DNA of 39,120 nucleotides. Source: a virus. A model generated the notes under the pieces. That model ran no database searches, had not been told where the DNA came from, and saw only the letters and a list, made by a program, of their open reading frames with translations. The number at the start of each line of letters is the position of its first letter. Position 1 is the stretch's first letter. This document shows, one piece after another, positions 4,190 to 20,238 of this stretch. Where the stretch lies: positions 1 to 39,120 of the IMG/VR virus record IMGVR_UViG_3300020452_000067; one strand, 5' to 3'. The position numbers and the translations under genes are program-made.

Positions 4190-4302
4190 AGGATTGAAAT
4201 AGTTTGTGAACCATCAGGATTGTCTGTGATTGTTATTTTTTTATTTGGATGAGACTTTTGTAATAGTCTCTTCAATTTTAAGTTTTTTAATAGTTTTTTC
4301 AT
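4186..4302 (-). CDS. Very small basic protein, 38 residues
   Basis: MKKLLKNLKLKRLLQKSHPN followed by KKITITDNPDGSQTISIL. It is strongly basic, with an amphipathic Lys/Leu helix in the first half. It would be dismissed by length, but its start overlaps the stop of the 242-residue gene by four bases (ATGA, 4299-4302), and its stop overlaps the next start in the same way (4186-4189). It therefore fills exactly the only gap in an otherwise continuous coupled series. It could bind nucleic acid or a membrane surface; that is inference. Confidence 0.65.
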   Translation of the reverse strand: MKKLLKNLKLKRLLQKSHPNKKITITDNPDGSQTISIL

Positions 4303-5027
4303 CTATAAATGTGAAACATCATACCATGATAACCAGAATTATATTTCTTACCACTACCCTTCATTTGTAGATGAAATAGTTTTTCACCATCTTTAGTTCT
4401 AAACTCTGCGGTAGTATTATTTAATGTCCACTTACCAGTTTTTACTTTTGTTCTTAATGTATCTAATGGAATCATAGTTATTCTCTCAGTACCCTTTAAA
4501 TGCCATACAAGAGTATTTACTGACTCACCTTCAAATCCCTTTGCAACAACTACCTCAAATACTTCCATCTTATTTGTATTCATCCATCTTAAGAATGATG
4601 ATGACACCTTAGTATCAATATTATTTTTATATACTCTGTTTTGATGTATTTCTTTATCAGATAATTCAAGTGTAGGATGTTTCTCTTGTACAATGGATTT
4701 TAGTCCTTCATTTGGATAACCAAAGAATTGAGTTAGAAATTCTCCACATAATGTATTAGATAATTTAAAGTGTTTAATCCATTTAGAGGTAGAATATAAA
4801 CCTACCTGTGTGTGGTTTTTTGATACACTCTTTACACTATAATTCCAGTCTCTAGTCTCTTCTTTAATATCAACCTTAGTATTTGGTTTTCCGTCAACAG
4901 TATGTTTACCACCAAACAAATTGTCAAATGTAGCAGCAAGTTTATGTTCAAACTCATGTCCTGCTACCTTAGCGTTTTTACCTGCAATTTGTGATGCTAC
5001 CATTTCTGACCTTTTTGGAATTTTCAT
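4299..5027 (-). CDS. Unknown 242-residue protein, possibly nuclease-like
   Basis: Begins MKIPKRSEMVASQIAGKNAK. Residues about 22-60 read GHEFEHKLAATFDNLFGGKH then TKVDIKEETRDWNYSVKSVS. A helix with Glu followed by Asp and then a strand with S-V-K is the rough layout of PD-(D/E)XK nuclease cores, with Ser where the second acidic residue usually stands. That makes a nuclease-like fold possible, but activity is doubtful. The C-terminus (HLQMKGSGKKYNSGYHGMMFHIYR) is rich in Lys, Gly and His. It lies 24 bases downstream of the halogenase and has its own TATAAT box, so it need not belong to that pathway. A methyltransferase lies further along the same strand, which keeps a restriction-like role open. 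Confidence 0.72.
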   Translation of the reverse strand: MKIPKRSEMVASQIAGKNAKVAGHEFEHKLAATFDNLFGGKHTVDGKPNTKVDIKEETRDWNYSVKSVSKNHTQVGLYSTSKWIKHFKLSNTLCGEFLTQFFGYPNEGLKSIVQEKHPTLELSDKEIHQNRVYKNNIDTKVSSSFLRWMNTNKMEVFEVVVAKGFEGESVNTLVWHLKGTERITMIPLDTLRTKVKTGKWTLNNTTAEFRTKDGEKLFHLQMKGSGKKYNSGYHGMMFHIYR

Positions 5028-5051: not shown

Positions 5052-6560
5052 TTATTGTAGGTAAGGTAGATGTGACAGATTTTTAATTGTCTCAAGATAT
5101 TCCTTATGATCTACCATATTAGTTTTACTCTTATAGTCTTGAATATAATCATGCTGTTGTTTAGCATCATCATATAATGCCTGTGGATTTTTCCTTGACC
5201 ACATATACTCCTCTATTGCTTTGTTATTAATCATGTTAATGCCTTTCATTATCTGTATATAATTATCGTTACCCCAGAAATCTAACATATCATCAGTATC
5301 AAATATATCTAGGAACTCATGCTTACATTTTTCCTCCAAAGTCCTTACCCAGTCAGTTTTATGATCTTTCATATATCTCCAGAATTTAGAGTCAGTTCTA
5401 TTAGTACAATAATGTAAGTTTAAAAATTGTGTGTAGTCAAACAATCTTTTATTCTGACACATATTAAATCTATCTCTATTATAGTCTAGCATTTTAAGAG
5501 TAGAATTTACACTCAAAAATGTCTCTACCATGAATGTAAGGTATTGATGAGTCAATGCTTCAAGTGGTTCTATAAATCCACCTGCTAAACCTACTGCTAC
5601 ACAATTTCCTATCCAAGGTTTTTTCCAGTATCCACTATTCCATTTAAGTATCTTTGGTTCTTCACTTAATCTTTCAGAATGATTTATTGCTAACCAATTA
5701 TCAAAGTCATGCTTTGCTTCATCATCAGTAGTAAACTTAGATGAGTACAAATAACCCGTACCATATTCAGTTTGTGACGGGATCTGCCAAATCCACCCAT
5801 TTTTAGTCGCATTTGCTAGTGTGTAACTAGGAATAAAATCACTGTGATTTTTTATTTTCTGTGGTATTGCCCTGTCTAATGGTAAATGCTCAGATAAATC
5901 TACCCACTCTGCATCATCCAACTTATTAAGTAACATAGCATTGAGTCCACTTGCATCTACAAATAAATCTGCAGTTACTTCCCCACTCTTCTCACATATA
6001 ATACTCTGTATATTTTTACCATCAGTTTTTACCTCACTCACTTTATCTTCTATAATATTGACTCTGCCCTTTAAATATTTGAATAGAAACTCACATAATT
6101 TATCTGTTGTTATATGAAATGCAAAATCATGCTTATGTAATTCATAATCAGCAGGAATAGTATTTGTTGGTTCATTGAAGTTAATGCCACCAGTATAACA
6201 ATCATTAAGTAGAGAATAAAAGGAACTCACATTACTTGTTAATATTTCACTTCTAGTTCCTGTTTCATCATCTGCAACTTCCACAAATCCATGATAATAC
6301 TGTGTATGTGGAATCCAGTCCTTGAACAATACACCTAACTTAACTGTTGCATCTAATTCTCTAATAACATCCTCTGTATTATATCCTAAAGTTTCTTCAA
6401 ACACATCAACAAAACTAGGTGTAGTTCCCTCCCCTACACCTATACTTTGATTCTCTGGATTATAATACAATGATATATTAACTTTATCTTTCCAAAAATT
6501 ATTGAATAATGCAGCAGTAACTAATCCAGATGTACCACCTCCAACTATTACTATATTCAT
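5052..6560 (-). CDS. Flavin-dependent tryptophan-halogenase-type enzyme
   Basis: In this family, reduced FAD and oxygen form hypohalous acid that chlorinates or brominates an aromatic substrate, classically tryptophan. From the ATG at 6560 the protein has 502 residues, the usual family length. FAD motif GGGTSG lies at 7-12. The lysine equivalent to the catalytic Lys of PrnA/PyrH is in TVKLGVLFKDW (Lys74). The family signature GWIWQIP is at 255-261, and the conserved GGFIEPLEALTH segment with its glutamates is near 327-338. All expected catalytic elements are therefore present. The start overlaps the stop of the flavoprotein-like gene upstream by four bases (ATGA, 6557-6560); a TTG at 6566 is less likely. 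Substrate and halide cannot be deduced. A reductase partner is not seen here and may come from the host. Confidence 0.9.
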   Translation of the reverse strand: MNIVIVGGGTSGLVTAALFNNFWKDKVNISLYYNPENQSIGVGEGTTPSFVDVFEETLGYNTEDVIRELDATVKLGVLFKDWIPHTQYYHGFVEVADDETGTRSEILTSNVSSFYSLLNDCYTGGINFNEPTNTIPADYELHKHDFAFHITTDKLCEFLFKYLKGRVNIIEDKVSEVKTDGKNIQSIICEKSGEVTADLFVDASGLNAMLLNKLDDAEWVDLSEHLPLDRAIPQKIKNHSDFIPSYTLANATKNGWIWQIPSQTEYGTGYLYSSKFTTDDEAKHDFDNWLAINHSERLSEEPKILKWNSGYWKKPWIGNCVAVGLAGGFIEPLEALTHQYLTFMVETFLSVNSTLKMLDYNRDRFNMCQNKRLFDYTQFLNLHYCTNRTDSKFWRYMKDHKTDWVRTLEEKCKHEFLDIFDTDDMLDFWGNDNYIQIMKGINMINNKAIEEYMWSRKNPQALYDDAKQQHDYIQDYKSKTNMVDHKEYLETIKNLSHLPYLQ

Positions 6561-7936
6561 ATACAATCGTATCCTATTGTTCCAAATGGTTCTGGTGGGT
6601 CAGTCTCTCCCAAAGTTGATAATAAATGAGCATACGGAGCTCCTAGACCTATTGAATATTCATAGAACATATTTGCATTGTTCATCCATGAGTAAGGTAG
6701 TATCAATTCTCCACTAGCATTTTGTGCGTGATGTGCTATTCTAAAATCCTCCTCAGTAAATGAGTCACTTATTATTTTATCTAAGAATTTATTTCCTGCA
6801 AATACGCCAGGATGTGCAAATACTGGACTGTTTAAATACTCAGTTGCTTGCTCTTTAAGTCTATTCCAGAATTCTGTATCATGTCTTGAACCATATTGAT
6901 AAGTAAAACATAAAAAAGACTGTAAAGTTTGTATAATATAACTTCCATAATTTAACTGTAGCATATGGTCATGCACTTCTCGATCTCTAGCATTATCATT
7001 ATAAAGGTATCTACATATTTGTTCTGCAACAAAATAAGTTGACTCTGCACTTGTGCCAGGCGATGCAGGTTCTATGTTTATTAATGCAGCACCATTTCTC
7101 ATATATCTTTTATTATCAGGATGTATTACATAATTTGATATTTTAGGTATCCATGAATGTTCTTCATAAAAGAATGTTCTTTGTCCACCATTGACTGTCT
7201 CATCAAATTTAAAATTAGGAAATACCTCCTTAAAATCCTCTACAACATCAAGTTCATGAGCAATATTATTATCATATAGATATATCCATCTTTGACTGTC
7301 ACGCAAGGGTAAACCCACTATGTGACCATACTTAGCAGCATATTCAATAGTATAATTCCAATTACCTTTTTCTGGTATTTCTATCATTATTGCACTATTA
7401 GTAAATGTCACACTAGGTTGCATATAATCCATTTCCCAACCTAATGGATTTTTTTCTGTGCAGTCTATGACATAATCATACTCATTATTATTAATTAAAC
7501 ACTTATCATCAGTAACAGAGAATGAATCTATTTTCTGTTGTATTATACTTACATTCTTTCCAAATATCTTACCACCATCTTCTAGAAAATGTTGTCTAAA
7601 TTTTTCAATATCAAATGTATTGCTACATCCTGATACCATAAAGTTTTTATCTCTTCTATTACCCCAACCAACATACTTATACCCACAACTATCAACACCG
7701 TCACAATACTTATCTAACCATCTTTTAGTAAAAAATATTTCTCTCTCTAATACTTCTTGAAAGGCAACACCAATACCACTTAACATATATGGATATACTT
7801 TGTCAGGGTCATGTATTAAAGTAAACTCATCATCACCAAATTTTTCTTTACCATCATACCTTCTATTCATTACTAATAATGATAACTGTATGAACGCTTC
7901 GGGTGTAGCACCCACTACTGCAATTTTTCTGGTCAT
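6557..7936 (-). CDS. Degenerate halogenase-like flavoprotein paralogue
   Basis: A 459-residue protein coupled by ATGA overlaps both to the halogenase downstream and to the 2OG oxygenase upstream. It keeps the general outline of a halogenase: an N-terminal beta strand and turn (KIAVVGATPEAF), a mid segment YGHIVGLPLRDSQRWIYLYD in place of the GWxWxIP region, and INIEPASPGTSAESTYF where halogenases have the conserved Pro-rich loop. Key residues are missing: the N-terminal loop is VVGATPEAF rather than GxGxxG, and no KxG lysine context is evident. It may be a non-catalytic partner, a substrate-binding subunit or an enzyme with altered chemistry. Assignment to the family rests on pattern and position, not on an alignment. 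Confidence 0.7.
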   Translation of the reverse strand: MTRKIAVVGATPEAFIQLSLLVMNRRYDGKEKFGDDEFTLIHDPDKVYPYMLSGIGVAFQEVLEREIFFTKRWLDKYCDGVDSCGYKYVGWGNRRDKNFMVSGCSNTFDIEKFRQHFLEDGGKIFGKNVSIIQQKIDSFSVTDDKCLINNNEYDYVIDCTEKNPLGWEMDYMQPSVTFTNSAIMIEIPEKGNWNYTIEYAAKYGHIVGLPLRDSQRWIYLYDNNIAHELDVVEDFKEVFPNFKFDETVNGGQRTFFYEEHSWIPKISNYVIHPDNKRYMRNGAALINIEPASPGTSAESTYFVAEQICRYLYNDNARDREVHDHMLQLNYGSYIIQTLQSFLCFTYQYGSRHDTEFWNRLKEQATEYLNSPVFAHPGVFAGNKFLDKIISDSFTEEDFRIAHHAQNASGELILPYSWMNNANMFYEYSIGLGAPYAHLLSTLGETDPPEPFGTIGYDCI

Positions 7937-8529
7937 GGCATAAAGTTGAAATTAATTAACACTCTTCGTTCATCCTTAGTTGGACTACCTGCGTGATAAT
8001 AATTTGATGGGAAAACAATTAATCTACCTTTCTTAGGTGATACTTTATCTACTGGACTCCACTGATGTTCAAATCTATTGTCTATTCCTATCTCATCATT
8101 AATATCTCTTTCTTGAAATAAGTATGTGTCTCCAGTGGCATCAGTAACATAATATATAGCACTAAATCCTCCAGAGTCAGTTGTATCTGTGTGTGGTGGA
8201 AAATGTACTATATCATCTTTTATTGGTGTCTGTAATATACCTCTAATCCTTACTGGTCTGTAGTCTGGTAAAATATCATCTACTACCTTACTCATTAAAC
8301 CTATCATAGTGTGATAGAGTGATGTATCCCATATCTTACCATCTTCAAATACATTAACAGTAAACTGTGGGTATCCACCACCTCTCTTATCACCTACTTT
8401 ATAATCCATTGAATCTTGCCAACTCCAAGGAATTTCTGGACTCGATAATAATTGTTCTATAACATCTTGGTAAGTTGGACTAACAAAATCATCAAAGACT
8501 TTAAATTTGTGTGCTATTGGTGTAATCAT
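7933..8529 (-). CDS. 2-oxoglutarate/Fe(II)-dependent oxygenase (hydroxylase family)
   Basis: Non-heme iron oxygenase that uses 2-oxoglutarate and O2 to hydroxylate a substrate. At 198 residues it has the size of the single-domain prolyl-4-hydroxylase-like group common in cyanophages. The iron triad is visible: HTD with His113 and Asp115, and His179 in NYYHAGSP; the 2OG-binding Arg is in DERRVLINF (188/189). The start overlaps the stop of the 89-residue gene (ATGA, 8526-8529). Its own stop overlaps the start of the flavoprotein-like gene (7933-7936). This links it to the halogenase pair and suggests it acts on the same small molecule or protein. Substrate unknown. Confidence 0.87.
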   Translation of the reverse strand: MITPIAHKFKVFDDFVSPTYQDVIEQLLSSPEIPWSWQDSMDYKVGDKRGGGYPQFTVNVFEDGKIWDTSLYHTMIGLMSKVVDDILPDYRPVRIRGILQTPIKDDIVHFPPHTDTTDSGGFSAIYYVTDATGDTYLFQERDINDEIGIDNRFEHQWSPVDKVSPKKGRLIVFPSNYYHAGSPTKDERRVLINFNFMP

Positions 8530-8795
8530 TCACAATCTTTGGTAGTTAATATATCAAATGGGATAATTTTGTCATCAAGTAAGAAGTCATGATACTGGTC
8601 GGGATCTTCAAAATTTTCCTCAACATTGTCCATAAATCCTTTGATTTCTCTAATGAGTTTCCAACAGGCATCTTGTTCAATTTTCTCCTCTGGAGATAAA
8701 TCTTTAAACCTACCTAGTCTAGCATAATACTCATACTTTAGTGTAATGTATTCCCTGACCTTAATAAAGTCTTGGAATGTTGCTACTTTGTCCAT
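8526..8795 (-). CDS. Hypothetical acidic 89-residue protein
   Basis: Starts MDKVATFQDFIKVREYITLK and is predicted helical in its first two thirds, with an acidic C-terminal part (NVEENFEDPDQYHDFLLDD). No family is recognised. It overlaps the end of the ligase-like gene by 13 bases and is joined to the 2OG oxygenase by ATGA. It therefore lies in a continuous coupled string from the nucleotidyltransferase to the halogenase. It could be a small adaptor in that string; this is inference from position only. Confidence 0.72.
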   Translation of the reverse strand: MDKVATFQDFIKVREYITLKYEYYARLGRFKDLSPEEKIEQDACWKLIREIKGFMDNVEENFEDPDQYHDFLLDDKIIPFDILTTKDCE

Positions 8796-9955
8796 GATTT
8801 TACAACGGTAATGTTTGCTTGCCTAAAATCATCATCAACAAACTTTAGGTTAGTACCTTTATATGATACCACATATCCCTCTGGTTGTGAAGGAACTCTA
8901 TCAACAAATGTTTTGATTCTATCAACTTTATTTAACTGACTTAATACCATTTTCTTAGCAGTACGAACTGAGATGTATGATGCTACCACAAAATAAATCT
9001 CCATCTCAAACTTTTGTATGAATTTTAAACCCATGTTCTTCATGTGCATATATCTTTTCTTTGCAGTCTCAGTCTTTTTCTTATCAATCTCTTCATCCAT
9101 TTTTCTAGCATAAAATAATGCAAAATCTCCTGCAACTCTCTTAGTGTCAACAACACCCTTACCAGTTCTAATTCTCTCATTGAAAAACTGTTTGAATAAT
9201 GTTGCCATCAAGAATTTAGATGTACCATACTCATGTATAAGTTTTAGAAATTCTTTTGATTTGTGAACTGAACCTGATGCTCTGTTGATAAGAGCAGTGT
9301 ACTTAGCACTGTCACGAACATTAAACTTAGTTATACCTGACTCATCTACAAAATTAGCATCTGGAACATAACACTCTTTAGTGCTAGGTATCTTTAACTG
9401 AGCATTTACTGCTGCTGTAGCAGTCTGTATAGTGTCTCCTAAGTAAACTGTATGAAATACTATACCTAACTCTGCCTCTGTGATACTGATGCCCTTGAGA
9501 GAGTCAACAGGAACTGCATAGGTAATAGCATTTGGTGTAAATGTAATATATCTTTCTCCATCTAAATTTGCATATTCTGTATCATTAGTAAATAACAAGT
9601 CTCCTTGAACCATACCTCTGATACCTAGTGTAGGTAGATACTTAAGACATACTTTGAGTTTATTTGCTAACTGTTCATCATCAGGTGCAAAATAATATAA
9701 ATCTATGTCTGTCTCTGTGTAACAAACTTTAGGATTGAACTTATTGAATACTGATTTAGTACCAACAAAGAATCTATCAGTCTGTGGGTCAATGCCACAA
9801 ATAATAGCAGGTGAACCATCCCACTTTGTACTAATTTTTAAGTCAGACTTTTTGCCAGTCAACATATGACCGAATGATTTGAGAAAGTCTATGGTTTCTT
9901 TAGGTGAACCATTAAGGATATTATCTTCTAAATGTTCTAGGTGTGTGTTTTTCAT
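8783..9955 (-). CDS. Nucleotidyltransferase of the ligase superfamily (KxDG motif)
   Basis: A 390-residue protein with the marks of covalent nucleotidyltransferases (RNA/DNA ligases, capping enzymes). Motif I TKWDGSPA has the candidate AMP-linked Lys44. Further motifs are FFVGTKSVF, a motif IV-like PEGYVVSYKG, and a motif V-like NLKFV near the C-terminus. The expected reaction is adenylation of the lysine followed by joining or modification of a nucleic-acid end. The frame is open to 9997, but the start is placed at ATG 9955 (MKNTHLEHLEDNIL). A GCTATAATAG promoter lies inside the upstream extension, and I recall cyanophage homologues beginning with KNTHLEH. Substrate (RNA, DNA, nicks or ends) is not deducible. 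It overlaps the next gene by 13 bases. Confidence 0.8.
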   Translation of the reverse strand: MKNTHLEHLEDNILNGSPKETIDFLKSFGHMLTGKKSDLKISTKWDGSPAIICGIDPQTDRFFVGTKSVFNKFNPKVCYTETDIDLYYFAPDDEQLANKLKVCLKYLPTLGIRGMVQGDLLFTNDTEYANLDGERYITFTPNAITYAVPVDSLKGISITEAELGIVFHTVYLGDTIQTATAAVNAQLKIPSTKECYVPDANFVDESGITKFNVRDSAKYTALINRASGSVHKSKEFLKLIHEYGTSKFLMATLFKQFFNERIRTGKGVVDTKRVAGDFALFYARKMDEEIDKKKTETAKKRYMHMKNMGLKFIQKFEMEIYFVVASYISVRTAKKMVLSQLNKVDRIKTFVDRVPSQPEGYVVSYKGTNLKFVDDDFRQANITVVKSWTK

Positions 9956-9961
9956 ATCTCT

Positions 9962-9967
9962 ATTATA
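9962..9967 (-). promoter_or_regulatory. Extended -10 promoter TGCTATAAT giving a near-leaderless mRNA
   Basis: The minus strand reads GTTTGCTATAATAGAGATATG, with the ATG at 9955. TGC before TATAAT is an extended -10 element, which can replace a strong -35 box; only a weak CACAAA is seen further upstream. The last base of the hexamer is seven bases from the A of the start codon, so transcription should begin at or next to the AUG. There is no Shine-Dalgarno sequence. This site decides the start of the ligase-like gene. Confidence 0.55.
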
Positions 9968-10006
9968 GCAAACTTTGTACCCTTTGTGTGAGTTCATTTG
10001 TGCCAG

Positions 10007-10606
10007 TTATTGAAATGGTTTACCAGATAACCATACTACTAAACTTTTCCTACTTCCTTTAGTGACAGGTGTAACTTGATGTAATGAATAACTTGGAAAC
10101 GCAATCACCAAACCTTTTTCCTTTGGAAGTGTTGAGAGTCTACTAGAATGAATTTGAAAATCACCACCCTCATACTCATCAGGATTTGATAACTGTAAGG
10201 TGATACTTAATTTTCGTTGAGGATATTCAGATCCTTTTATACCATTATCTATATGCCATCCATAAAAACAACCGTCACTATTATATCTTGTGTATTGTAA
10301 ATCTTCAGCAAATCCTGATATATCAAATCTCCAATGCAATCCATTTAAACATCTACATATATTTCCTAACCTTTCATATATCCACTCAGTATCCTTATTC
10401 AGTCCTATCCATGAATTTAATGATTTTCTTATTGCTTCATTTGATTTTTGTTTTTCTGAATCTGCACCTACTGTAGAGTTCATTGCATTATACAATTCAC
10501 CTATTTGAATTATTCTATCACATTCGTCAGGTGTAAATCCATCTTCCCAAGTTGCATAATCACACTCATCATATGTTGGATGAGGTAATAAAGGATAATG
10601 TGCCAT
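10007..10606 (-). CDS. 2OG-Fe(II) oxygenase, PKHD/prolyl-hydroxylase type
   Basis: A 199-residue hydroxylase using iron, O2 and 2-oxoglutarate. Iron ligands are His118 and Asp120 in GWHIDNG and His176 in SYSLHQVTPV; Arg186 in GSRKSLVVW would hold 2OG. The stretch LSITLQLSNPDEYEGGDF, followed by the 'SLH-VTPVT-G-R' block, is characteristic of PKHD-type hydroxylases (PiuC/prolyl 4-hydroxylase alpha-like). It is only distantly like the other oxygenase at 7933-8529, so the two are not recent duplicates. It starts 7 bases after the stop of the collagen-like adhesin gene with no promoter between, so it is co-transcribed with a protein full of Thr-Pro-Gly, a canonical prolyl-hydroxylase target form. 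Hydroxylation of that protein is a testable inference. Confidence 0.88.
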   Translation of the reverse strand: MAHYPLLPHPTYDECDYATWEDGFTPDECDRIIQIGELYNAMNSTVGADSEKQKSNEAIRKSLNSWIGLNKDTEWIYERLGNICRCLNGLHWRFDISGFAEDLQYTRYNSDGCFYGWHIDNGIKGSEYPQRKLSITLQLSNPDEYEGGDFQIHSSRLSTLPKEKGLVIAFPSYSLHQVTPVTKGSRKSLVVWLSGKPFQ

Positions 10607-10613
10607 AATAAAA

Positions 10614-12383
10614 TTAGTAAATTACTCGAATGTCTCCTCCATTTGGGATGACTTGATAAGGTGTACCAGAGACTGCTCTACCTGCAGCACCTCCACCAGG
10701 ATTTGTCTTACCCCAGTCTCCACCTGCAACACCATCTTGACCAGGTGTACCAGGTGTACCAGGTTGACCATCACCACCAGGTGTACCAGGTGTACCAGGT
10801 TGACCTGGTGTGCCAGGTGTGCCAGGTGTCCCATCACCGCCAGGTGTTCCATCTGTACCAGGTGTACCATCAGTACCTGGTTGACCAGGTGCACCATCAG
10901 TTGCAGCACCACCTTGTGCGGGTTGACCTGGTTGTCCACCAGAACCAGGATTTCCACTGCTTCCTTGTCCACCTCCTGTACCTGGTTGACCTTGTGTACC
11001 TTGAGTTGCTGCAGTTGCTGAAGTACCAGGTGTACCAGGTGTCCCTGCACCACCAGGTGTTCCTTGTGTGCCTGGTTGCCCTCCTGATGAGTTTAAAGTT
11101 CCAGTTAGATTGTTCCAACCTCTACCTCCACTACCAGAACCTGCTAATCCTTTAATACCCTTAACTCCATTATAACCCCCTTGTCCAGCTAAACCACCTT
11201 GTCCTCCTTGACCATGTAAACCCTTAACACCACCTTGTCCACCAGTACCTGCTCCACCACCTGCTCCTTTTCCTCCTCCAGAACCACCTTGTCCTCCATC
11301 ACCACCTGCCATAGCAACACGATTGTTGATAGCATATTGTTGTGACTGCTGAACATTTGCAGTTTGTTGTGTTGACTGTGTAGTAGTTTGACAACTAGGA
11401 TACCTTGACCACCATTCTCTGCGTCTTGAACAATTTTGACTGTAACTTAAAATAGTTTGTTGTGCTGTACTATTAACTCTTTGCCAGTTATATGAAATCC
11501 ATGTCTGCTGACCTGGTTGACCTGGTTGACCAGATGAACCTGGTGTACCCTCTATTCCATCACTACCTGAGTTGCCAGGTGTGCCATCTGTACCATCTGT
11601 ACCATCAACGCCAGGTTGACCGTCAACCCCTGCTTGACCTGGTGAGACATTATTAGTTCCATCTACACCATCCACACCATCCACACCATCAAATCCTCCA
11701 CCACCACCTGCCCATATTTTAGAAGTTGATCCTTCACATGATACAAATACAACTCTAGTTGCAGGTGCAGAGGGATTTGATATTGTTATAGCATGACCAC
11801 CAGGATTTCCTGATCCAGAACCTTTGACACCACCTGCTGCCATGATACCACTACCTGCAGGGGAATTATTAACAAATAGATTAAGATTAGATGATGCAGA
11901 GCTAGCAATGGATACAGCAGGTGTGCTAGTATCATCTGAAACTATCCTACCTCTAATTTTTAAGTATTTGGTAATATTTCTATTGAGGTTATTTCCCCAG
12001 TTTACACTAGCAGTTGGTGTGTCAGGTCCTGTAAGACTACCTGCATCAAATTTCTGCTCAGTTGCATTTGGGTCTTGTTCTATAACATATTCTTTTATTA
12101 TATCTTTTACATCTTGAGGTGATATAGCACCACTTGTGGGTACTCCAACATTTTCTACAGCATCTAAAATATATGGTAAATGTGGATCTGATGATGTAGG
12201 ATGTGCAGGAAAATTATATGGTGCGTCTATATCTGTAACTCTATACAATTCTGATGCAGAGATAGATTTTGATGTATCACCTATCGCTGCTCTAATTTGA
12301 CCAAATGAAAACTCGGTATTATTTGGTATATCAGATGTTTTTAATAATTGTTGGGTAGTATTTGACCAATCAGGTGCTGCCAT
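10614..12383 (-). CDS. Collagen-like and poly-glycine tail fibre/adhesin protein
   Basis: A 589-residue virion protein, probably a fibre tip or receptor-binding adhesin. Layout: an alpha/beta N-terminal region (1-225) with a DVKDIIKEYV helix. A first Gly-X-Y block follows (about 231-291), then a Trp, Gln and Ser-rich insert with two Cys (295-350). Next come a poly-glycine block (359-421, GGQGGSGGG type) and a long collagen-like block (about 435-554) made of GTP, GQP and GTD triplets. It ends with a short tail after GGGAAGRAVSG. In the Gly-X-Y block proline is always in Y, so X-Pro-Gly recurs. The poly-glycine block recalls the glycine-rich tips of T-even gp38-type adhesins (possible polyglycine-II packing). 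It is third in the fibre operon, followed 7 bases later by a hydroxylase gene. Confidence 0.85.
   Translation of the reverse strand: MAAPDWSNTTQQLLKTSDIPNNTEFSFGQIRAAIGDTSKSISASELYRVTDIDAPYNFPAHPTSSDPHLPYILDAVENVGVPTSGAISPQDVKDIIKEYVIEQDPNATEQKFDAGSLTGPDTPTASVNWGNNLNRNITKYLKIRGRIVSDDTSTPAVSIASSASSNLNLFVNNSPAGSGIMAAGGVKGSGSGNPGGHAITISNPSAPATRVVFVSCEGSTSKIWAGGGGGFDGVDGVDGVDGTNNVSPGQAGVDGQPGVDGTDGTDGTPGNSGSDGIEGTPGSSGQPGQPGQQTWISYNWQRVNSTAQQTILSYSQNCSRRREWWSRYPSCQTTTQSTQQTANVQQSQQYAINNRVAMAGGDGGQGGSGGGKGAGGGAGTGGQGGVKGLHGQGGQGGLAGQGGYNGVKGIKGLAGSGSGGRGWNNLTGTLNSSGGQPGTQGTPGGAGTPGTPGTSATAATQGTQGQPGTGGGQGSSGNPGSGGQPGQPAQGGAATDGAPGQPGTDGTPGTDGTPGGDGTPGTPGTPGQPGTPGTPGGDGQPGTPGTPGQDGVAGGDWGKTNPGGGAAGRAVSGTPYQVIPNGGDIRVIY
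10722..11081 (-). repeat. Collagen-coding tandem repeat tract (TACACCTGG-type 9-mers)
   Basis: On the plus strand the tract is dominated by CCAGGTGTA and close variants (CCAGGTGTG, CCAGGTTGA, CCATCAGTA) in nine-base register. It encodes Gly-Thr-Pro, Gly-Gln-Pro and Gly-Thr-Asp triplets (residues about 435-554). Near-identical neighbouring units, for example around 10741-10800, are suited to slippage and unequal recombination, so the tract length may vary between isolates. Confidence 0.85.
11511..11693 (-). repeat. Second, shorter Gly-X-Y coding repeat tract
   Basis: Encodes residues about 231-291 of the same adhesin, with GVD, GTD, GQP and GTP triplets. The plus strand shows CCATCTGTACCATCTGTACC and CACACCATCCACACCATC direct repeats. 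It is less regular and more Asp-rich than the 10722-11081 tract and is separated from it by a Gln/Trp-rich insert and a poly-glycine block. Confidence 0.75.
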
Positions 12384-12387
12384 AACT

Positions 12388-14949
12388 TTATGTGAATGTT
12401 CCTAATACAATAGAACCTACTCCTACTAGATTTAGTACCGCAGTATTTCCTACTGTAATTATTTCATAACCAGTGGTTGCACTACCTACTAATGATCTCC
12501 ATTGATCATCTGCACAATATACTTGAAGTTGATGAGTAGGTGAGAAGTAACCCATGTTAGAAGTTGACCAACCAACTGGTTCATCTACTGGTACTGTGGG
12601 TGTCTGTGCAGTTTTATTAACTTCACTCTCAAATATAGGACCTTTAAATCCTCTAATTGAAACGAAATCATTAAGTGTCTTACCAAATGTTTCTGTGAGT
12701 AATCCTATGAAATTACCACTGCCTTGACCCATAGCAATTTTAAGTTTCATATCATGCTTACTGAACCATAAGTTACCAACATGATCTCCCTCACTATGGA
12801 AATATGATCCACCACTTGATGCTGTATTTCCCTCTGCAACAGGTAAACATAATGGTTGCCCTGCTGATCTCATATCTAATGCACCGCCAGGTTGAGTGGT
12901 ATTAAATCCAATTTGAATTGTATTTGTACCAACACCAATAGTACCACCTATGCCAGTATGATCTCCAAATAATCTAATATTTCTATAGATATCTACATTT
13001 TCCAGACCTTCACTTGTAGCAGCAACTGCAGTTGTACCAATACCAATACTACCACTCTCAAATATACTTACTGAATCTAATAAAGCATTACCGTTTCTAC
13101 CATAACCAACATAGAACTTACTATTCATCAATCTGTCACCAGATGTTGTTCCAATACCCACACCCTGAGAGTATGCGTCCATGAACAATTCTGACTGTGT
13201 AGAATATATCTCAACACCATCAGTAATTCTACGATTACCAGTATTGACTCCAATATATTGACCAAAGATTCTGGTATTCTGTCCAGATGTAACCAATATA
13301 TCACTAAATGTGCTTATACCTGATGCTCTATATCCAACAGCAGATACAACACCTGTAAGACCATCAATTTTAATTTGACCCGTTGATATTGTTCCAATAC
13401 CCGTTACATTTAAACCACCTGCTATTTCTAAACTACTTGCTTTTGCAATTCCTATTGTAGATATACCTGCAATATTAATATTAGATCCAACTATATTTTG
13501 ACCTGTAATATTTCCACCACTAATAGCACCAGTCGCTGTAATACCATCAGCACCAGTGATAGAACCATTCATAGTAATTCCTGATCCTAGGATTAGTCCA
13601 CCACCATTCAACACTCTTATATCTGACCCTGCAACGGTATTACCAACAACTAGACCACTACCAATAGTCTGTCCTCCACCAATATTTGAACTATCAGTTG
13701 CATCTAATTCTCCTGCGGTTACAGTTCCAGTAACATTAAAGTCAGCACCACCTGTAACAGTTCCTTGGAATGTTGATATACCTGCAACAGATAGACCTGC
13801 ACCAACATTAAGTACATTGATATTTTGTGTAGAACCTAATTCAACACTACCTACTAAACTACCACCAATTGATATACTTCCACCTAATATTAGATCACCA
13901 TTATGAACTCTAACTGTTCCAATAAAACCTGCAGCATCACCAACAGCAGATGAAGTATTACCTACACCTAAAAATTCTCCAACTCTTAATTCTTCTCCTA
14001 CTGTACTAACACCTGCACCTCTGAGGAATGTGGGTGCTGTACCATTAATATCAACTGAATCTACTTGAATATCTGGATCTCCACCTATACCATATGCTAT
14101 TGATGCATTTAATGATGTGGTTGCAGTTCCACTAAATGTGGTTGCAGTAATAATACCATTACTTGCTGTGATTCCACCTGATACTTGTATAGCATCAAAC
14201 TCTGTAAGGTTGGAGAATGTTCCACCTCCAGATACAACACTGCTGACAACTATAGCAGGTACATCAGTCAGTCCTTGTGCGTTGGTTGCAACTGTAGCAC
14301 TATCAGCATTACCTGCTAGACTTCCAACAAAGGCACTGGATGCTGTTATGGTTGAAAATGTACCAACCTCTGCATTTATATTACCCTGTCCTGCACCTGT
14401 TTCATTTAATACTGTAATATTTTTTGTTACTAATCCTTCAAATGTACCAATACCACTCTCGGCATCCATGTATATTTCATATCCTACAGCAAAATCTGCA
14501 CCACCTCTAGGTTGGTCAGTTCCAATTCCTACATCTTTTAATGTAAAAATGGTGTCACCTGCACCAGGATTTGTCCAAACTGATGCGGGAATATTTGTTA
14601 AATTTGCACCAGAACCGAAATATTCTACAGCAGTAACATTACCTTGTTCATCTACTGTAAATCCTGTAGTTCCAATACCAACTTGAAATGCTGCCTCTGG
14701 AACTGTAGTTCCTATACCTACTGACGATCCACTGCTAACAGCAATATCATTCTTAAATGAACTAATACCTGTAACTGTTACATTATTAAATTCTGCACCT
14801 TCAGATACTATAACATTACCACGAACATCCAACTGCTGTCTAGGTATTGTACTACCAATACCCACCAGACCATTATTGGAGATCAGGTCATCAGTATCTA
14901 CTTGAATCCCATCTCTGAAATTTATGACGGTTTTATAATTGCTTGGCAT
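12388..14949 (-). CDS. Tail fibre-like structural protein with VGIGT repeats
   Basis: An 853-residue virion protein. The motif VGIGT/S followed by a Pro and a short strand recurs many times (near residues 30, 76, 141, 600 and 640). It is set in a Ser, Thr, Gly, Asn-rich beta-repeat chain (GGGTFSNLTEF, GAISGGNITG). Such repeats are typical of trimeric phage fibres with beta-helical or knitted shafts. The N-terminus MPSNYKTVINFRDGIQVDTD probably joins it to the fibre or baseplate base. The C-terminus (WSTSNMGYFSPTHQLQVYCADDQW, then GYEIITVGNTAVLNLVGVG) looks like a compact tip. It sits between the S74-type fibre and the collagen-like adhesin in one operon, five bases before the latter. No enzyme motif is seen. 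Confidence 0.85.
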   Translation of the reverse strand: MPSNYKTVINFRDGIQVDTDDLISNNGLVGIGSTIPRQQLDVRGNVIVSEGAEFNNVTVTGISSFKNDIAVSSGSSVGIGTTVPEAAFQVGIGTTGFTVDEQGNVTAVEYFGSGANLTNIPASVWTNPGAGDTIFTLKDVGIGTDQPRGGADFAVGYEIYMDAESGIGTFEGLVTKNITVLNETGAGQGNINAEVGTFSTITASSAFVGSLAGNADSATVATNAQGLTDVPAIVVSSVVSGGGTFSNLTEFDAIQVSGGITASNGIITATTFSGTATTSLNASIAYGIGGDPDIQVDSVDINGTAPTFLRGAGVSTVGEELRVGEFLGVGNTSSAVGDAAGFIGTVRVHNGDLILGGSISIGGSLVGSVELGSTQNINVLNVGAGLSVAGISTFQGTVTGGADFNVTGTVTAGELDATDSSNIGGGQTIGSGLVVGNTVAGSDIRVLNGGGLILGSGITMNGSITGADGITATGAISGGNITGQNIVGSNINIAGISTIGIAKASSLEIAGGLNVTGIGTISTGQIKIDGLTGVVSAVGYRASGISTFSDILVTSGQNTRIFGQYIGVNTGNRRITDGVEIYSTQSELFMDAYSQGVGIGTTSGDRLMNSKFYVGYGRNGNALLDSVSIFESGSIGIGTTAVAATSEGLENVDIYRNIRLFGDHTGIGGTIGVGTNTIQIGFNTTQPGGALDMRSAGQPLCLPVAEGNTASSGGSYFHSEGDHVGNLWFSKHDMKLKIAMGQGSGNFIGLLTETFGKTLNDFVSIRGFKGPIFESEVNKTAQTPTVPVDEPVGWSTSNMGYFSPTHQLQVYCADDQWRSLVGSATTGYEIITVGNTAVLNLVGVGSIVLGTFT

Positions 14950-14976: not shown

Positions 14977-17900
14977 TTATTTATCTTTGATGTCATCAAC
15001 CTTATTAGAAAGATCTTTGACTGCCTCTATTAACAGAGGTATAAGTTTATTATAGTGGACACCTTTAGTGCCATCAGGTTTGGTAGATACTGCTTCGGGA
15101 AGAACCTTCTCAATATCTTGTGCGATCACACCAATGTCATGTCCAGAATAGTTTTTGTTACCTTCCTTCCAATCGTATTCAGTACCACGAATCTGCATAA
15201 CCTTAGCTAATGGATTCTCTAATGTAGATACATTTTCTTTTAATGATATATCAGAGGATTGACCATAGAATGCGACAATATCATCACACACATGTAAAGG
15301 TCCTCCACAGAATGTAGCACCTGCACCTGCAAAGTACACATCACCACTAAATGTTGTGAATCCAGTATTCTGAACTATTTGGTTGTAAGTTACAGGTGCA
15401 TCATACTGTGTATCGGTTGCGATTGCAACTCTGAAACCAGGTGCTGCATTTAAAATCAAGTTACCTTGAAGTGTTTTAGTTGTAATCTCATTCTTATTAG
15501 TACCAACACCAACAAGCACATTGTTGATAGCAGCACCGTTAGGGAATGAACCAGTAAAGTCTATATCACCTGCTAGTTCGATAGTTCCACTAGATACCAC
15601 CTTACCAGTCATGGAGACATCATTTGTCATAGTAACAGGACCATCAAGTTGTGATAGTATGTTTTGACCTGCACCACCCTCAACATTAAGTCTCTGTTTG
15701 ACAGTAACTTCATCAAATACAACAGAGTTTGCAGAAGGATCTTCTCCTGTAATACTTGGAATAGGAATATCAAATGATTTTTCCTGTCCAGTTGCAGAGT
15801 TAATCTTCTTGTTACCAATAAAGAAGTCTCCTCTATTATTCAGTCCAGTATAAACATTAGTACCACCACCTCTGTTTTGTGACTGTGCTAAGTATTCTTC
15901 AGTCTCAGTAAGAGTCCTGTTCTGAACTTGTGGTAGACCAGTTGAGTAGTTACCAGGACCATAACCAAGATATTCAAATGTGTGACCTGATGCTCTAAGT
16001 ATCGAAGGTCTTCTACTCTCCACTGCTAGAGTTTTTATCTTCCGCATTGGAGTGTTAATCGCATGAGTTTTAGGAACTGTTCCTAATTGTCCTCTAAGAA
16101 CAGTAAGTGAATCATTTCCTGATCCAGTTAGTCCTGTAGCAGAAACTCTTACAATCTCTTCATTAAGTTCAAGGTAATCTCCTAACTCAAATCTATTTGC
16201 AGTACCAATACCACTGGCATGTTGTACTGGAATTATTGTTGCTGTATTTGTTATGTCAGTTTTTAATCCTACACTATCTCCACCATATAGATTGAAATAT
16301 CTAGCACCTATTGCTTCTTTAACATCAACTGTTTGATTGTTGTCTGAGAAAGCATGTGGTAGTATTCTATATCCTGATACAAATACTGGATCTGTAACTG
16401 TGGTTGAGGTAAACTCATTAGGTGATGCGATAGTATTACTATAGAAATCTCCTACCTTATTATTATTGTTATCTACAACTGTAAACTGTCCACCTCTCCT
16501 GATATTATGAGGTGTGGATGTAGTAAATGTTGTCAATCCTGTAGTAACATCAAAGTGAGTAGACGCTATAGCAACAGAAGGACCTGATTTAAAGATATAT
16601 TGTCCAGATGCAGAATTATGAGGAATTATTGTAGGATCTCCTACTGTAGCAGCGATAGCAATACTACTTGGAGTTGGGAATGATAGTATTCTGTAATATC
16701 CATCATCTGTTTTACCAACACCAGTTACTTGTATTGTATCATTGACATTATTGATAATACCTGCAGTTGGAACTCCTATAGATGCACCTGTAAAGTTCTC
16801 AGGGTACAATGTCTCTCCACCTATAAAACCAGAGCCAGGTGACTGAAGTTTGAAGTATGTTATAGAAGTAGAACCAACACCAACTTTTATATGTGCTGTT
16901 GCACCATTCCAATTTTGTGATCCATCTAATAATCTTACATTATATTTGTCTGTAACAGCAAATCCTGTGCCACTACTGAATGGTGATAGATTTTCATATT
17001 CTTTCACCCCGTTAAAATCATGCTGATTGTCTAGTTGAACTGTTACAACACCTGCTGATACGGGAGTAACACTAGAGACAGCAAGACCAACACCAAAGTT
17101 TTGTGAGAATTTATCTATTGCTTCTCTGGTTGATGAGTTAAGTATATTATTAGAATCTACTTTACCAAGAGGAGCTCTCCTAGCAAATGATTTCATAGCA
17201 GGTGGATTCTTTCTTACATTATCTCTATCTAACTGTGGATAGAAGTCACTAACCTGTTGACTGTACTGTTGATCTGTAAATTCTGTTGGTGGTGTGTAAT
17301 CAGATGCTAAGATTTCTAATAGATATACACCATCAGTTTCATCCTTAGCATATGGTTTCAGTACAGTAGATCTATAAACATCAAAGTTACCTTTGTTATC
17401 TTTGACAGTAAATCTAGGTAGACTTAGACCTCTGCTTGCAGTATTGTCTATGAAATTACCTGTATTTTTTGTATCTCCATCTACATCAGTATTACTATAC
17501 TGGAATTCCATATTATTAGGAACTGCAGTTACAGTATAGAATCCATTATATCCTTTTTTATCTGCACCTGTAGGGTTGTTACTATCAAGAACATTCTCAG
17601 TATATACAAGTTGTCCTACTTTTACACCATGTGGTAGTTCTGCTCTAACTGTGACAGTATTGCCCACTTCACTTGTTGTTGCAATAAACCCGTAGTTTCT
17701 CTTAAAATTATTATCCGAAGAAGTAATTGAAGTTGCAGTAGCATCAGATGTTTTTGCGAATCCAGTTGTGCTTGAAGGTTGCAATACAAATCCATCTACG
17801 GGATCTCTTGAGTTCTCTGCTTCTTTTGGAATTACATAGCGAACTTTATATAATTTGTTATCAATACCTCTACGATCCTCATATCTCTTGAAGTATGATG

Positions 17901-20238
17901 CATCAGTCTCCTCATTATTCTTGACATAATCATTAGTATTAAGTTGACCGTAAAGATTAGAATTAGTGTCAGTTAAAACATACCAGTTTTTCTGTGTATC
18001 ATCAAATTGTACTGGATGTCCTATATCATTAGGTTTCTTATCACTTACTCTACTCTCTACTCTTAAATCACTACCACCATAGATTGATATAGGAATATTA
18101 TTTACAGCATTTGATAATGTGCTTGCTAATTTTAGTGCAGTTGATGTGGGTTTAATAGCATAGTAAACTCTATTTGGTTCTAATCCTTCTGGTAAATCAC
18201 CTGCATCACTGATAACACGAACAGTTTCACCATCTATAATACCAATATCCTGTATTGCTAGTTCAAAATTAGTATTAGGTACACCTGCAGTACTAAATTT
18301 AGTTCCTTGATGTGAGTTGATACCGATACTAGAAGTTTGAACACCAGTTGTTACATTCTCTGGCATATAAACTGGAGATCCAAATTCAGTACCACCTATG
18401 GATACATATAATTCTTCATTTAAGTTTGCACCTAATCTGTAACCCTGTGTTAATGGAAGTGGTGGTACATCCTCTCTATCAAATCCAGAGAGATATAAGT
18501 GTGATGATATACCTGCTTGTTTTGTCTTATTTACATCTAACTGGAAATATGATATTTTATCTCTGTCTTCTTCATAAGTAGGAACCCACTCAGGAGAAAC
18601 AATATGTGTGATATATCCTTGGTCATCTCTTGGGAAAGCATCAGGTCTAAATCCACCTGCAATCAAGGCATGTTGTCCAAAGTTGGAGTTAGAGTTAGTA
18701 ATTGATGCATCAGCACCACCTGACCCTTTAATATGACCATTATAACCAATAGCAAATACTGATACAATCTGCATGACCGCATCATTATCCATTTCTACAT
18801 GGGTTTGTTCCCATCCTTTACGATATATTGCACCACTATCTAAATGATAGACTGTATTAGGGTCAGTAGAACTAGATTCTGCTGCTAGTGTAGCACCTGT
18901 AGTTTTTTGATATGCTATTCCTTCGTATTGACGACTTTCTTTATTATATTTTACAAATGCTCTATCATCTTTCTGTAGTGATATACCAGTGAACTGTGCT
19001 ACAACCATTGATCTGAAACCAGTTGACTTAGCACCGTCTGCTTTCATACCGTTCATACCATATACAGAACGGAGTGAAGTATTAAAGATATATGGTGATG
19101 CTCCTTTTACAGTATCTGCTTCAATAGTTGCTCTTGCTGCACTAATATTTGTAGGTGTAGCAGGTAAGTTAGCAGGGACATCAGGTATTAAGTATGTAAA
19201 CTGAGTAGCTGATGGTACACTCTGAACAGATGTTGATATATTATAAGGTGTAACATTAACACCGCTAATCTTGATTGGTGTGCCTGTGGTTAATCCATGA
19301 GGTGACTGAGTTGTGACAGTTACCTGAGTTGTAGCTGTTGTACCATCACCTGCTATGATAGATGTTATGATAATAGGATCATTACCTAATGCACCAACTA
19401 TTTCATACTCTGGTCTTACTTTATCAAAGTCACCTAAGAAATTAGGATACTCATAATCTACTGCACGACCTGTTGGTTCTTGATATGCATAACTTAGTTT
19501 GTAATAGTACATACTAAGATCTGTTACATACCCTTCTACATCATTCACACCATCAGCATACTCAAAACAAGTTAGTTTGTGATGAGAGAATGTTGGTTTT
19601 GATTGATTTGCTTCATTAAACTGTTGATGGTCTGTATATACTAAACCATTCTCATTTCCATCAAAGAATGAGAATTGCCAGAAGTAACAACTACCTGTGA
19701 TCCTCATTATTGCGGATGGAGGTACTGCATCATCTGTAGGGTTTGGAACATATAACGGTCTTATTTTTGTCTTCCTTAAATCCATACCAACTATGGAAGT
19801 ACCTCTTGGTACAATTACACCACCATAGACTGAGTTAAATTTGTATAATACATTATTCTCAACTGATAAATCAAACTCACTTGTAAGACTTAATCCAAAT
19901 GTTAGTGATGCGAGTGCTTCTCCACCTGTAGGTGATACTGATAATGCTCTAGTTCCATCAGTAGGGTCTGGTTTTATTGCAAATCCTGGTCTGTTATCAA
20001 TCTGATGTTCACCTGGATAGATCAATATAGTTGTCTTATCTGTGTCATCATTATCAATACCTGGTTGATATGAAAATCTTGCAGACTCTATAAGAGCTCT
20101 TTGTATTGTCTTGAATGGTTTTGTTAAAGAGTTACCCTGATTAGTAATACTGTCTGTAGAGTCCAAATCATTTGGATTTACATAAAGGATTCTACCTTCG
20201 GTATTCTTTATAAAATTTTCTAACTTATTTAATGGCAT
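14977..20238 (-). CDS. Giant tail fibre protein with peptidase-S74-type C-terminal chaperone
   Basis: A 1753-residue protein, the largest in the window. The N-terminus (MPLNKLENFIKNTEGRILYV, then KPFKTIQRALIESARFS and TTILIYPGEH) is of the kind that begins right-handed beta-helix (pectate-lyase-like) domains in phage fibres. Long beta-rich stretches follow, with patterns such as TVTTQSPHGLTTGTPIKISG recurring in variant form. The last ~110 residues (SDISLKENVSTLENPL, YDWKEG, DIGVIAQDIEKVLPEAV, YNKLIPLLIEAVKDL) form a classic S74 intramolecular chaperone. That domain trimerises, folds the fibre and cuts itself off, with the SDISLK serine and lysine as likely catalytic residues. It is the first gene of the fibre operon and starts from the late-promoter region at 20270-20289. 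Probably host-recognition or side-fibre; which fibre is unknown. Confidence 0.9.
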   Translation of the reverse strand: MPLNKLENFIKNTEGRILYVNPNDLDSTDSITNQGNSLTKPFKTIQRALIESARFSYQPGIDNDDTDKTTILIYPGEHQIDNRPGFAIKPDPTDGTRALSVSPTGGEALASLTFGLSLTSEFDLSVENNVLYKFNSVYGGVIVPRGTSIVGMDLRKTKIRPLYVPNPTDDAVPPSAIMRITGSCYFWQFSFFDGNENGLVYTDHQQFNEANQSKPTFSHHKLTCFEYADGVNDVEGYVTDLSMYYYKLSYAYQEPTGRAVDYEYPNFLGDFDKVRPEYEIVGALGNDPIIITSIIAGDGTTATTQVTVTTQSPHGLTTGTPIKISGVNVTPYNISTSVQSVPSATQFTYLIPDVPANLPATPTNISAARATIEADTVKGASPYIFNTSLRSVYGMNGMKADGAKSTGFRSMVVAQFTGISLQKDDRAFVKYNKESRQYEGIAYQKTTGATLAAESSSTDPNTVYHLDSGAIYRKGWEQTHVEMDNDAVMQIVSVFAIGYNGHIKGSGGADASITNSNSNFGQHALIAGGFRPDAFPRDDQGYITHIVSPEWVPTYEEDRDKISYFQLDVNKTKQAGISSHLYLSGFDREDVPPLPLTQGYRLGANLNEELYVSIGGTEFGSPVYMPENVTTGVQTSSIGINSHQGTKFSTAGVPNTNFELAIQDIGIIDGETVRVISDAGDLPEGLEPNRVYYAIKPTSTALKLASTLSNAVNNIPISIYGGSDLRVESRVSDKKPNDIGHPVQFDDTQKNWYVLTDTNSNLYGQLNTNDYVKNNEETDASYFKRYEDRRGIDNKLYKVRYVIPKEAENSRDPVDGFVLQPSSTTGFAKTSDATATSITSSDNNFKRNYGFIATTSEVGNTVTVRAELPHGVKVGQLVYTENVLDSNNPTGADKKGYNGFYTVTAVPNNMEFQYSNTDVDGDTKNTGNFIDNTASRGLSLPRFTVKDNKGNFDVYRSTVLKPYAKDETDGVYLLEILASDYTPPTEFTDQQYSQQVSDFYPQLDRDNVRKNPPAMKSFARRAPLGKVDSNNILNSSTREAIDKFSQNFGVGLAVSSVTPVSAGVVTVQLDNQHDFNGVKEYENLSPFSSGTGFAVTDKYNVRLLDGSQNWNGATAHIKVGVGSTSITYFKLQSPGSGFIGGETLYPENFTGASIGVPTAGIINNVNDTIQVTGVGKTDDGYYRILSFPTPSSIAIAATVGDPTIIPHNSASGQYIFKSGPSVAIASTHFDVTTGLTTFTTSTPHNIRRGGQFTVVDNNNNKVGDFYSNTIASPNEFTSTTVTDPVFVSGYRILPHAFSDNNQTVDVKEAIGARYFNLYGGDSVGLKTDITNTATIIPVQHASGIGTANRFELGDYLELNEEIVRVSATGLTGSGNDSLTVLRGQLGTVPKTHAINTPMRKIKTLAVESRRPSILRASGHTFEYLGYGPGNYSTGLPQVQNRTLTETEEYLAQSQNRGGGTNVYTGLNNRGDFFIGNKKINSATGQEKSFDIPIPSITGEDPSANSVVFDEVTVKQRLNVEGGAGQNILSQLDGPVTMTNDVSMTGKVVSSGTIELAGDIDFTGSFPNGAAINNVLVGVGTNKNEITTKTLQGNLILNAAPGFRVAIATDTQYDAPVTYNQIVQNTGFTTFSGDVYFAGAGATFCGGPLHVCDDIVAFYGQSSDISLKENVSTLENPLAKVMQIRGTEYDWKEGNKNYSGHDIGVIAQDIEKVLPEAVSTKPDGTKGVHYNKLIPLLIEAVKDLSNKVDDIKDK
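14978..14984 (-). promoter_or_regulatory. Possible late-promoter element (GATAAATA)
   Basis: At the stop codon of the 1753-residue fibre gene the minus strand reads AAAGATAAATAACTC. The ATAAATA core matches T4-type late promoters (TATAAATA). The downstream fibre start lies 28 bases further on. It would allow separate late expression of the 853-residue and collagen-like proteins. The element overlaps coding sequence (Asp-Lys-stop), so its presence could be chance. Confidence 0.3.

Follow-up and report, generated by a model that had tools for sequence, protein, structure and literature searches.

A degenerate halogenase homologue conserved in the collagen-like adhesin block of T4-like marine phages

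Introduction

This study deals with a stretch of 39,120 nucleotides of viral DNA (IMG/VR record IMGVR_UViG_3300020452_000067, positions 1 to 39,120; hereafter the window), in which an intact flavin-dependent halogenase, a degenerate protein of the same fold and an Fe(II)/2-oxoglutarate oxygenase are encoded side by side. The 39-kb contig stems from a cyanophage-like virus of the T4 type and derives from its tail region. Cyanophage halogenases, the halogenase VirX1 (6qgm) and clusters of halogenases with 2-oxoglutarate oxygenases are already known (PMC2984593, PMC3037559, PMC7824862, PMC10452541). What the cyanophage 'tryptophan halogenases' do has been a standing question ever since their first description, and protection from antibiotics has been called speculative (PMC2984593). 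In the part of the literature that was covered, we found no report of a phage pseudo-halogenase, of a linkage to an adhesin, of prolyl hydroxylation of phage tails or of the arrangement described here.

The halogenase cassette

The cassette consists of three open reading frames, designated HAL, MID and 2OG and referred to together as the trio:

5052 to 6560, minus strand: HAL, intact flavin-dependent tryptophan-type halogenase of the long clade, 502 aa, K74 and E334 kept (PF04820, E 1.1e-80; motifs; PDB relatives; tree)
6557 to 7936, minus strand: MID, predicted pseudo-halogenase, 459 aa (phrog_2928; motif table; AlphaFold2 fold; substitution rates)
7933 to 8529, minus strand: 2OG, Fe(II)/2-oxoglutarate oxygenase, 198 aa (PF13640, E 2.4e-7; PF13759, E 1.3e-6; both above cutoffs)
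8526 to 8795, minus strand: small conserved gene, 89 aa, coupled upstream of 2OG by ATGA; conserved in HAL loci and in most of the loci with MID2, the intact short halogenase introduced below

A preliminary description of this DNA, made from its letters, had reported that three genes are joined by ATGA overlaps. The shared ATGA is indeed found at 8526, 7933 and 6557; the first of these couples 2OG with the 89-aa gene upstream, and the coupled chain comprises four genes rather than three. The same order of the trio recurs in five other contigs (020420_35, 020437_13, 020377_34, 020469_116 and 020470_1595; MID identity 59-91%) and in two partial ones, and thus the arrangement is not due to chance. 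The three genes stay together in close relatives, which was one of the checks proposed at the outset. Contig 3300020459_000013, with 0 differences in 3478 nt over the trio, was not counted as independent. The overlap between MID and HAL is kept in 6/6 HAL-bearing loci examined; that between 2OG and MID is not always kept, being replaced by an 8-bp gap in L005/L007.

HAL was read from the ATG at 6560 (502 aa); the open reading frame finder also gives a TTG at 6566. The protein belongs to the Pfam Trp_halogenase family PF04820 (272.2 bits; cutoff 21), and its relatives in the PDB include PrnA, RebH and VirX1 (6qgm). An alignment of more than 100 phage homologues bears out the hallmarks first noticed by eye, namely GGGTSG, K74, GWIWQIP and FIEPLE, and also shows E334. 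One qualification concerns the loop following the catalytic Glu, which reads PLEALTH in HAL and PLESTG in PrnA, RebH and S-SRM01; halide binding by the main chain may survive this change. HAL is thus a canonical halogenase as judged by sequence, and its halogenation activity is predicted.

The degenerate partner

MID scores only 16.3 bits against Trp_halogenase, which is below the family cutoff of 21, and matches the tryptophan halogenases of phrog_2928 with an E value of 1.2e-23. The sites of function are replaced: GATPEA stands for the GxGxxG loop that binds flavin adenine dinucleotide (FAD), VDSCGY lies at the position of the Lys, GHIVGLP replaces GWIWQIP and IEPASPG replaces IEPLE. Window-type MID proteins therefore lack the catalytic Lys, the catalytic Glu, the Trp motif (WxWxIP) and two of the three FAD glycines, which agrees with the earlier reading of the middle gene as a degenerate flavoprotein without FAD glycine motif and catalytic lysine. 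Among 202 non-redundant phage homologues, every complete protein that does not belong to the MID lineage has the catalytic Lys. Two further short families (L135-L145 and L114-L120) also keep the Lys and have Gln (PLQ) or Ser/Phe (PMS, PMF) in place of the Glu. Loss of the Glu alone is thus more widespread.

The structure prediction that had been proposed as a check returned the flavin halogenase fold. The AlphaFold2 model of MID, built from an alignment of 58 sequences, reached a predicted local distance difference test score (pLDDT) of 76.9 and a predicted template modelling score of 0.81; a model from 4 close sequences had been unusable (pLDDT 40). The model aligns with flavin halogenases along almost its entire length (Foldseek E 3e-22), with Z 34 for SttH (5hy5_B: Z 34.3, root-mean-square deviation 2.9, 381 residues) and Z 33.5 for PrnA (2ard: root-mean-square deviation 3.3, 379 residues). 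Because the input alignment contained halogenases, the model is not fully independent, and independent support comes from the sequence evidence. A search of the PDB with a MID sequence profile gave nothing convincing. MID also has the GNRxDKN-like stretch that is typical of its clade. The ratio of nonsynonymous to synonymous substitution rates is 0.09-0.24 for MID and 0.13-0.21 for HAL, and the neighbouring genes behave alike; MID is thus maintained by purifying selection. From its motifs, MID is a pseudo-halogenase, i.e. a halogenase fold minus the residues for flavin binding and catalysis.

The degenerate protein was originally taken to be a duplicated and repurposed partner. The pairing of a degenerate halogenase-fold protein with an intact one stands, but MID is no duplicate of HAL. 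Trees of 103 and 60 proteins, with support of 96-100 in the Shimodaira-Hasegawa-like approximate likelihood ratio test at the relevant forks, group MID with a second degenerate protein found in relatives, MIDx, and then with MID2, all within the short-halogenase lineage and apart from HAL; an origin of MID as a copy of HAL is ruled out by both trees. Since MID and MID2 are sisters within the short lineage and HAL lies elsewhere, the duplication belongs to the short lineage and HAL came from another clade. The slot following MID is occupied by MID2 in relatives and by HAL in the lineage of the window, and most simply HAL would have taken the place of MID2 by replacement. MIDx lacks both the Glu and the Trp motif and keeps the catalytic Lys (DATQKLGL) together with a near-intact nucleotide loop (GAGADA); it may still bind flavin. 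A single scan of bacterial genomes, limited to two short patterns, yielded no relatives of MID or MIDx.

The adhesin block

The cassette lies downstream of a Gly-rich collagen-like adhesin gene and of a second oxygenase gene, 2OGb. The remaining features of the block are:

4299 to 5027, minus strand: conserved flanking protein, 242 aa, downstream of HAL or MID2, in the same place across MID loci
8783 to 9997, minus strand: DUF6267 protein, 404 aa (PF19782, E 1e-104), in all loci of the adhesin N-domain scan
10007 to 10606, minus strand: 2OGb, prolyl-4-hydroxylase-like Fe(II)/2-oxoglutarate oxygenase (PF13640, E 3.3e-16), 7 bp after the adhesin gene
10614 to 12383, minus strand: Gly-rich collagen-like adhesin, 589 aa (Pfam Collagen, E 1.1e-7, above cutoff; phrog collagen-like tail proteins)
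12388 to 14949, minus strand: tail protein upstream of the adhesin (phrog_3269 tail, E 4e-11)
14977 to 20238, minus strand: long tail fibre protein with S74 chaperone C-terminus (phrog_529, 1360 bits; Peptidase_S74, E 1e-15)

In the direction of transcription, the order on the minus strand is long tail fibre, tail protein, adhesin, 2OGb, DUF6267 protein, 89-aa gene, 2OG, MID, HAL and 242-aa gene. The long tail fibre protein is closest to cyanophage proteins (47% to S-SRM01), and the window-type adhesin had no match among the isolated phages searched. The preliminary description had seen in the three genes a small biosynthetic pathway acting on a metabolite, a peptide or a modified base. The genes turn out to sit in an adhesin and tail-fibre block rather than in a stand-alone cluster, which makes a virion protein a more plausible substrate than either a metabolite or a modified base; a peptide had been among the options listed. 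It is unlikely, in our estimate, that the block harbours an auxiliary metabolic cassette, in which HAL and 2OG would make or decorate a small molecule or a surface sugar in the infected cell and MID would be a regulatory subunit. A role of this kind has been proposed for the S-SSM6a cluster of halogenase, 2-oxoglutarate oxygenase and carbamoyltransferase genes. Cyanophage halogenases with 2-oxoglutarate oxygenase neighbours do occur in sugar and carbamoyltransferase clusters (S-SSM7; PMC7824862), and VirX1, a phage halogenase of solved structure (6qgm), is reported to iodinate diverse substrates, according to the title of a work cited in PMC10452541. However, the window and its relatives have tail genes as neighbours, and no carbamoyltransferase, sugar or amino-acid enzyme was found among the window neighbours searched or the marked genes of the relatives; the window thus does not belong to the S-SSM6a-type clusters. 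Moreover, the pseudo-halogenase remains linked to the adhesin in loci that lack a nearby intact halogenase.

The latter observation comes from a scan with the non-repetitive N-domain of the adhesin alone, a query chosen to avoid selecting loci by their halogenase. It returned 36 loci, one of them from contig 3300020459_000013, whose trio is identical to that of the window. 2OGb adjoins the adhesin in 36/36 loci, and a MID-type protein is present in 34/34 loci with enough flanking sequence, either directly after the DUF6267 protein or with MID2 in between. Of these 34 loci, 6 carry HAL, 6 have MID followed by MID2, 8 have MID2 followed by MIDx and 13 have MIDx only; one ends within MID. An intact halogenase is thus present in 20 loci (6 with HAL, 14 with MID2). 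No intact halogenase is seen in the 13 MIDx loci, one of which ends right at MIDx, and at least 12 loci have none nearby. The idea that the pseudo-halogenase is always paired with an intact halogenase held in the first loci and was refuted by those with MIDx alone. The paired degenerate copy, which had been singled out as the point of interest, therefore needs to be qualified: the intact partner is optional. Searches of whole records (G002 and G005-G008; 56-112 kb) gave MIDx only, and the 180-kb record G001, to which locus L222 belongs, contains MIDx and a distant short halogenase gene with one in-frame TGA (G001:C1:18656-19795). As the records are fragments, the absence of a halogenase elsewhere in the MIDx genomes is not proven. 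2OG is present in the HAL loci and in most MID2 loci, and absent from the L016/L017 locus, from L126 and from the MIDx loci.

The constancy of MID or MIDx in the adhesin block, together with an intact halogenase that is optional and swappable (HAL, MID2 or none), would also suit a role of MID and MIDx as an adhesin assembly chaperone or minor virion component, for which the halogenase fold is only a scaffold and from which halogenation by HAL or MID2 is separate and dispensable. Tail-fibre chaperones encoded beside the fibre gene are common in T4-like phages. However, wherever HAL or MID2 occurs, MID is closely coupled to it, and MIDx, with its Lys and its near-intact GAGADA loop, may still bind flavin; we regard the chaperone role as improbable.

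Oxygenases and collagen-like repeats

Both oxygenases exceed the PF13640 cutoff and are members of the Fe(II)/2-oxoglutarate oxygenases. The HxD...H...R residues of 2OG (H113, D115, H179 and R189) are invariant in 8 homologues, and the corresponding residues of 2OGb (H118, D120, H176 and R186) are likewise invariant. 2OG also matches phrog_274, which is labelled 'DNA endonuclease V', with an E value of 5e-36. The cyanophage 'DNA endonuclease V' genes beside halogenases (S-H38, S-SSM7 and P-TIM40) may thus be misnamed oxygenases.

The gene for 2OGb follows the adhesin gene within about 10 bp in most loci. The window adhesin contains 76 Gly-X-Y triplets with Pro 26 times at Y and 0 times at X, and its Gly-X-Pro repeats flank a Trp/Arg/Tyr-rich insert (TWISYNWQRV...SRRREWWSRYPS). 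The adhesins of the scan carry 53-103 Gly-X-Y triplets each. Of the 2459 in-register triplets counted in 32 adhesins, 38.6% have Pro at Y; at X, Pro is not among the eight commonest residues, and Gly-Pro-X occurs only 0-2 times per adhesin. In 45 adhesins without a neighbouring 2-oxoglutarate oxygenase, Gly-X-Pro accounts for 14 of 319 triplets. In bacterial collagens the usual pattern is the reverse, with Pro at X and Thr at Y, and prolyl hydroxylation is a known modification of collagen (PMC8968730). The Y position of the Pro in the adhesin repeats is that used by prolyl hydroxylase, and 2OGb adjoins a protein with Gly-X-Pro repeats, as would be expected of a prolyl-4-hydroxylase acting on collagen. 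We infer that 2OGb hydroxylates the Y prolines of the adhesin. The collagen-like adhesin with its adjoining prolyl-4-hydroxylase-like oxygenase and Y-biased Pro, observed across 36 loci, may merit a finding of its own.

Linkage between halogenases and adhesins

A second adhesin family, of the S-SRM01 type, has few Gly-X-Pro triplets and almost no 2-oxoglutarate oxygenase neighbour. In many of its loci, relatives of HAL lie 15-36 bp upstream of the related adhesin. In S-SRM01 itself, a single Gly-rich open reading frame was found in 220 of the 241 kb examined, and it starts 36 bp after the only halogenase gene. A second adhesin-first scan collected 32 adhesins with a halogenase and 13 without. 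The receptor-binding part contains 5.2 Trp with a halogenase and 2.1 without (p 3e-5), and a WW motif occurs in 22/32 and 0/13 of the adhesins, respectively. Among the window-type adhesins, WW is present in all loci with MID (followed by HAL or MID2) and in none with MIDx. These contrasts follow few evolutionary changes and are not phylogenetically independent, so they are leads rather than tests. Tyr was also considered as the covarying residue and goes in the opposite direction (7.8 with a halogenase, 9.3 without). A halogenase search in the whole records of 12 halogenase-less adhesin contigs was empty; it had no positive control of its own, though the query matched elsewhere.

A Gly-rich open reading frame occurs within 3 kb of 43 out of 103 halogenase-family genes whose 3-kb flanks are complete, as compared to 3-5% of positions in the background (S-SRM01, 220/241 kb; syn9; S-SSM7). 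Averaged over clusters at 40% identity the proportion is 0.21, and the excess is uneven, being high for the HAL, MID and syn9-type clades and zero for several others. Phage halogenases are thus not all adhesin-linked, and we claim the linkage only for these lineages. In several loci of another phage lineage (L149-L189), a Gly-rich open reading frame, a 2OGb-like oxygenase and a short halogenase are found within a few kb.

The 43/103 genes near Gly-rich proteins, from distinct halogenase clades and in different gene orders, speak against the view that the cassette has no functional link with the adhesin and shares its operon through vertical inheritance only. Whole-block synteny is conserved and includes the DUF6267 and 242-aa proteins, which have no evident relation to the cassette, as this view would predict; nevertheless, we consider it very unlikely.

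A possible adhesin-maturation module

We give about an even chance to the cassette belonging to a module by which T4-like marine phages mature their adhesin. After synthesis of the adhesin (10614-12383), 2OGb would hydroxylate the Y prolines of the Gly-X-Pro repeats, and HAL, or MID2 in relatives, would halogenate exposed aromatic residues, chiefly the Trp residues of the insert between the repeats. Further residues may be hydroxylated by 2OG. MID, co-translated with HAL, would most likely serve as a dedicated non-catalytic partner that binds the adhesin and holds or folds it; in loci with an intact halogenase it would also hand the adhesin over to this enzyme, perhaps in a heterodimer. The partner role is the weakest of these steps, and a chaperone role without halogenation fits the loci with MIDx alone equally well. 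The sequences themselves show the order and coupling of the genes, the loss of motifs and the fold of MID, its selection, the constant company of adhesin, 2OGb and pseudo-halogenase and the phase of the Pro residues, whereas the substrate, both reactions and the part played by MID are inferred. That tailed phages both halogenate and hydroxylate their own receptor-binding adhesin, with a conserved pseudo-halogenase as a dedicated adhesin-presenting subunit, is a tentative and rather doubtful proposition.

Several points weigh against adhesin maturation. Gene order in T4-like phages is inherited, and linkage within one lineage is therefore weak evidence; the DUF6267 and 242-aa genes are linked to the adhesin as well. 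The phase of the Pro residues could be fixed by descent through repeat expansion. Across the adhesin tree, a halogenase is gained or lost only some 4 times. Only 2-4 independent pairs exist, too few for a phylogenetic control of the Trp correlation. WW is absent from the adhesins of loci with MID2 and MIDx (0/6), and some halogenase-linked adhesins have only 2 Trp. The halogenases of S-SSM7, P-SSM2 and S-H38 lie far from any Gly-rich protein, and the diverse substrates attributed to VirX1 point in the same direction.

If adhesin maturation does take place, the enzymes would put the chemical finish on the host-contacting part of the virus instead of producing a small molecule, and a chemically more varied tail tip would act alongside sequence variation in determining host recognition. 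Halogenated proteins on a virus particle would amount to a novel level of host recognition in the sea, and the conserved pseudo-halogenase would represent a novel type of pseudoenzyme. Now that the lineage is placed in an adhesin block, beside a hydroxylase-like gene and a neighbouring protein that displays the predicted target sites, the role of the halogenase becomes a question for virion proteomics.

Relation to known systems

VirX1 and the PrnA-like halogenases of cyanophages (syn9/Syn10, S-PM2, P-SSM2 and S-SRM01) belong to the same Pfam family as HAL and have the same catalytic Lys and Glu; gp052 of S-SRM01 is 42% identical to HAL. A degenerate partner or a context of adhesin and prolyl hydroxylase was not found described for these enzymes. 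In syn9, two halogenase genes in tandem follow those of Gly-rich tail proteins; unlike MID, both copies keep the Lys, the Glu and the FAD motif. The cluster of S-SSM6a and S-SSM7 (PMC7824862) shares the halogenase beside 2-oxoglutarate oxygenases in a phage. However, its neighbours are carbamoyltransferases and sugar enzymes, whereas those in the window are adhesin and tail genes, and it has no degenerate halogenase beside its halogenase. The short 'tryptophan halogenases' of the S-SSM5/S-SSM7_209 type represent the lineage from which MID and MID2 descend; they keep the Lys and mostly GWMFGIP, whereas MID has lost Lys and Glu. Mimivirus and Bacillus anthracis likewise combine a collagen-like protein with an oxygenase of the prolyl-4-hydroxylase family (PMC8968730). 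Here, the protein is the adhesin of a tailed phage, the hydroxylase-like gene lies within about 10 bp of it in most loci and hydroxylation is predicted; the Pro of the window adhesin is at Y as in eukaryotic collagen.

Further observations

The DUF6267 protein (8783-9997) contains a TKWDGSP stretch, which by eye is similar to the KxDG motif of nucleotide ligases. Heme oxygenase is a known auxiliary gene of cyanophages. A 224-aa open reading frame at 34921-35595, located between tail genes of the window, resembles heme oxygenase as judged by eye only.

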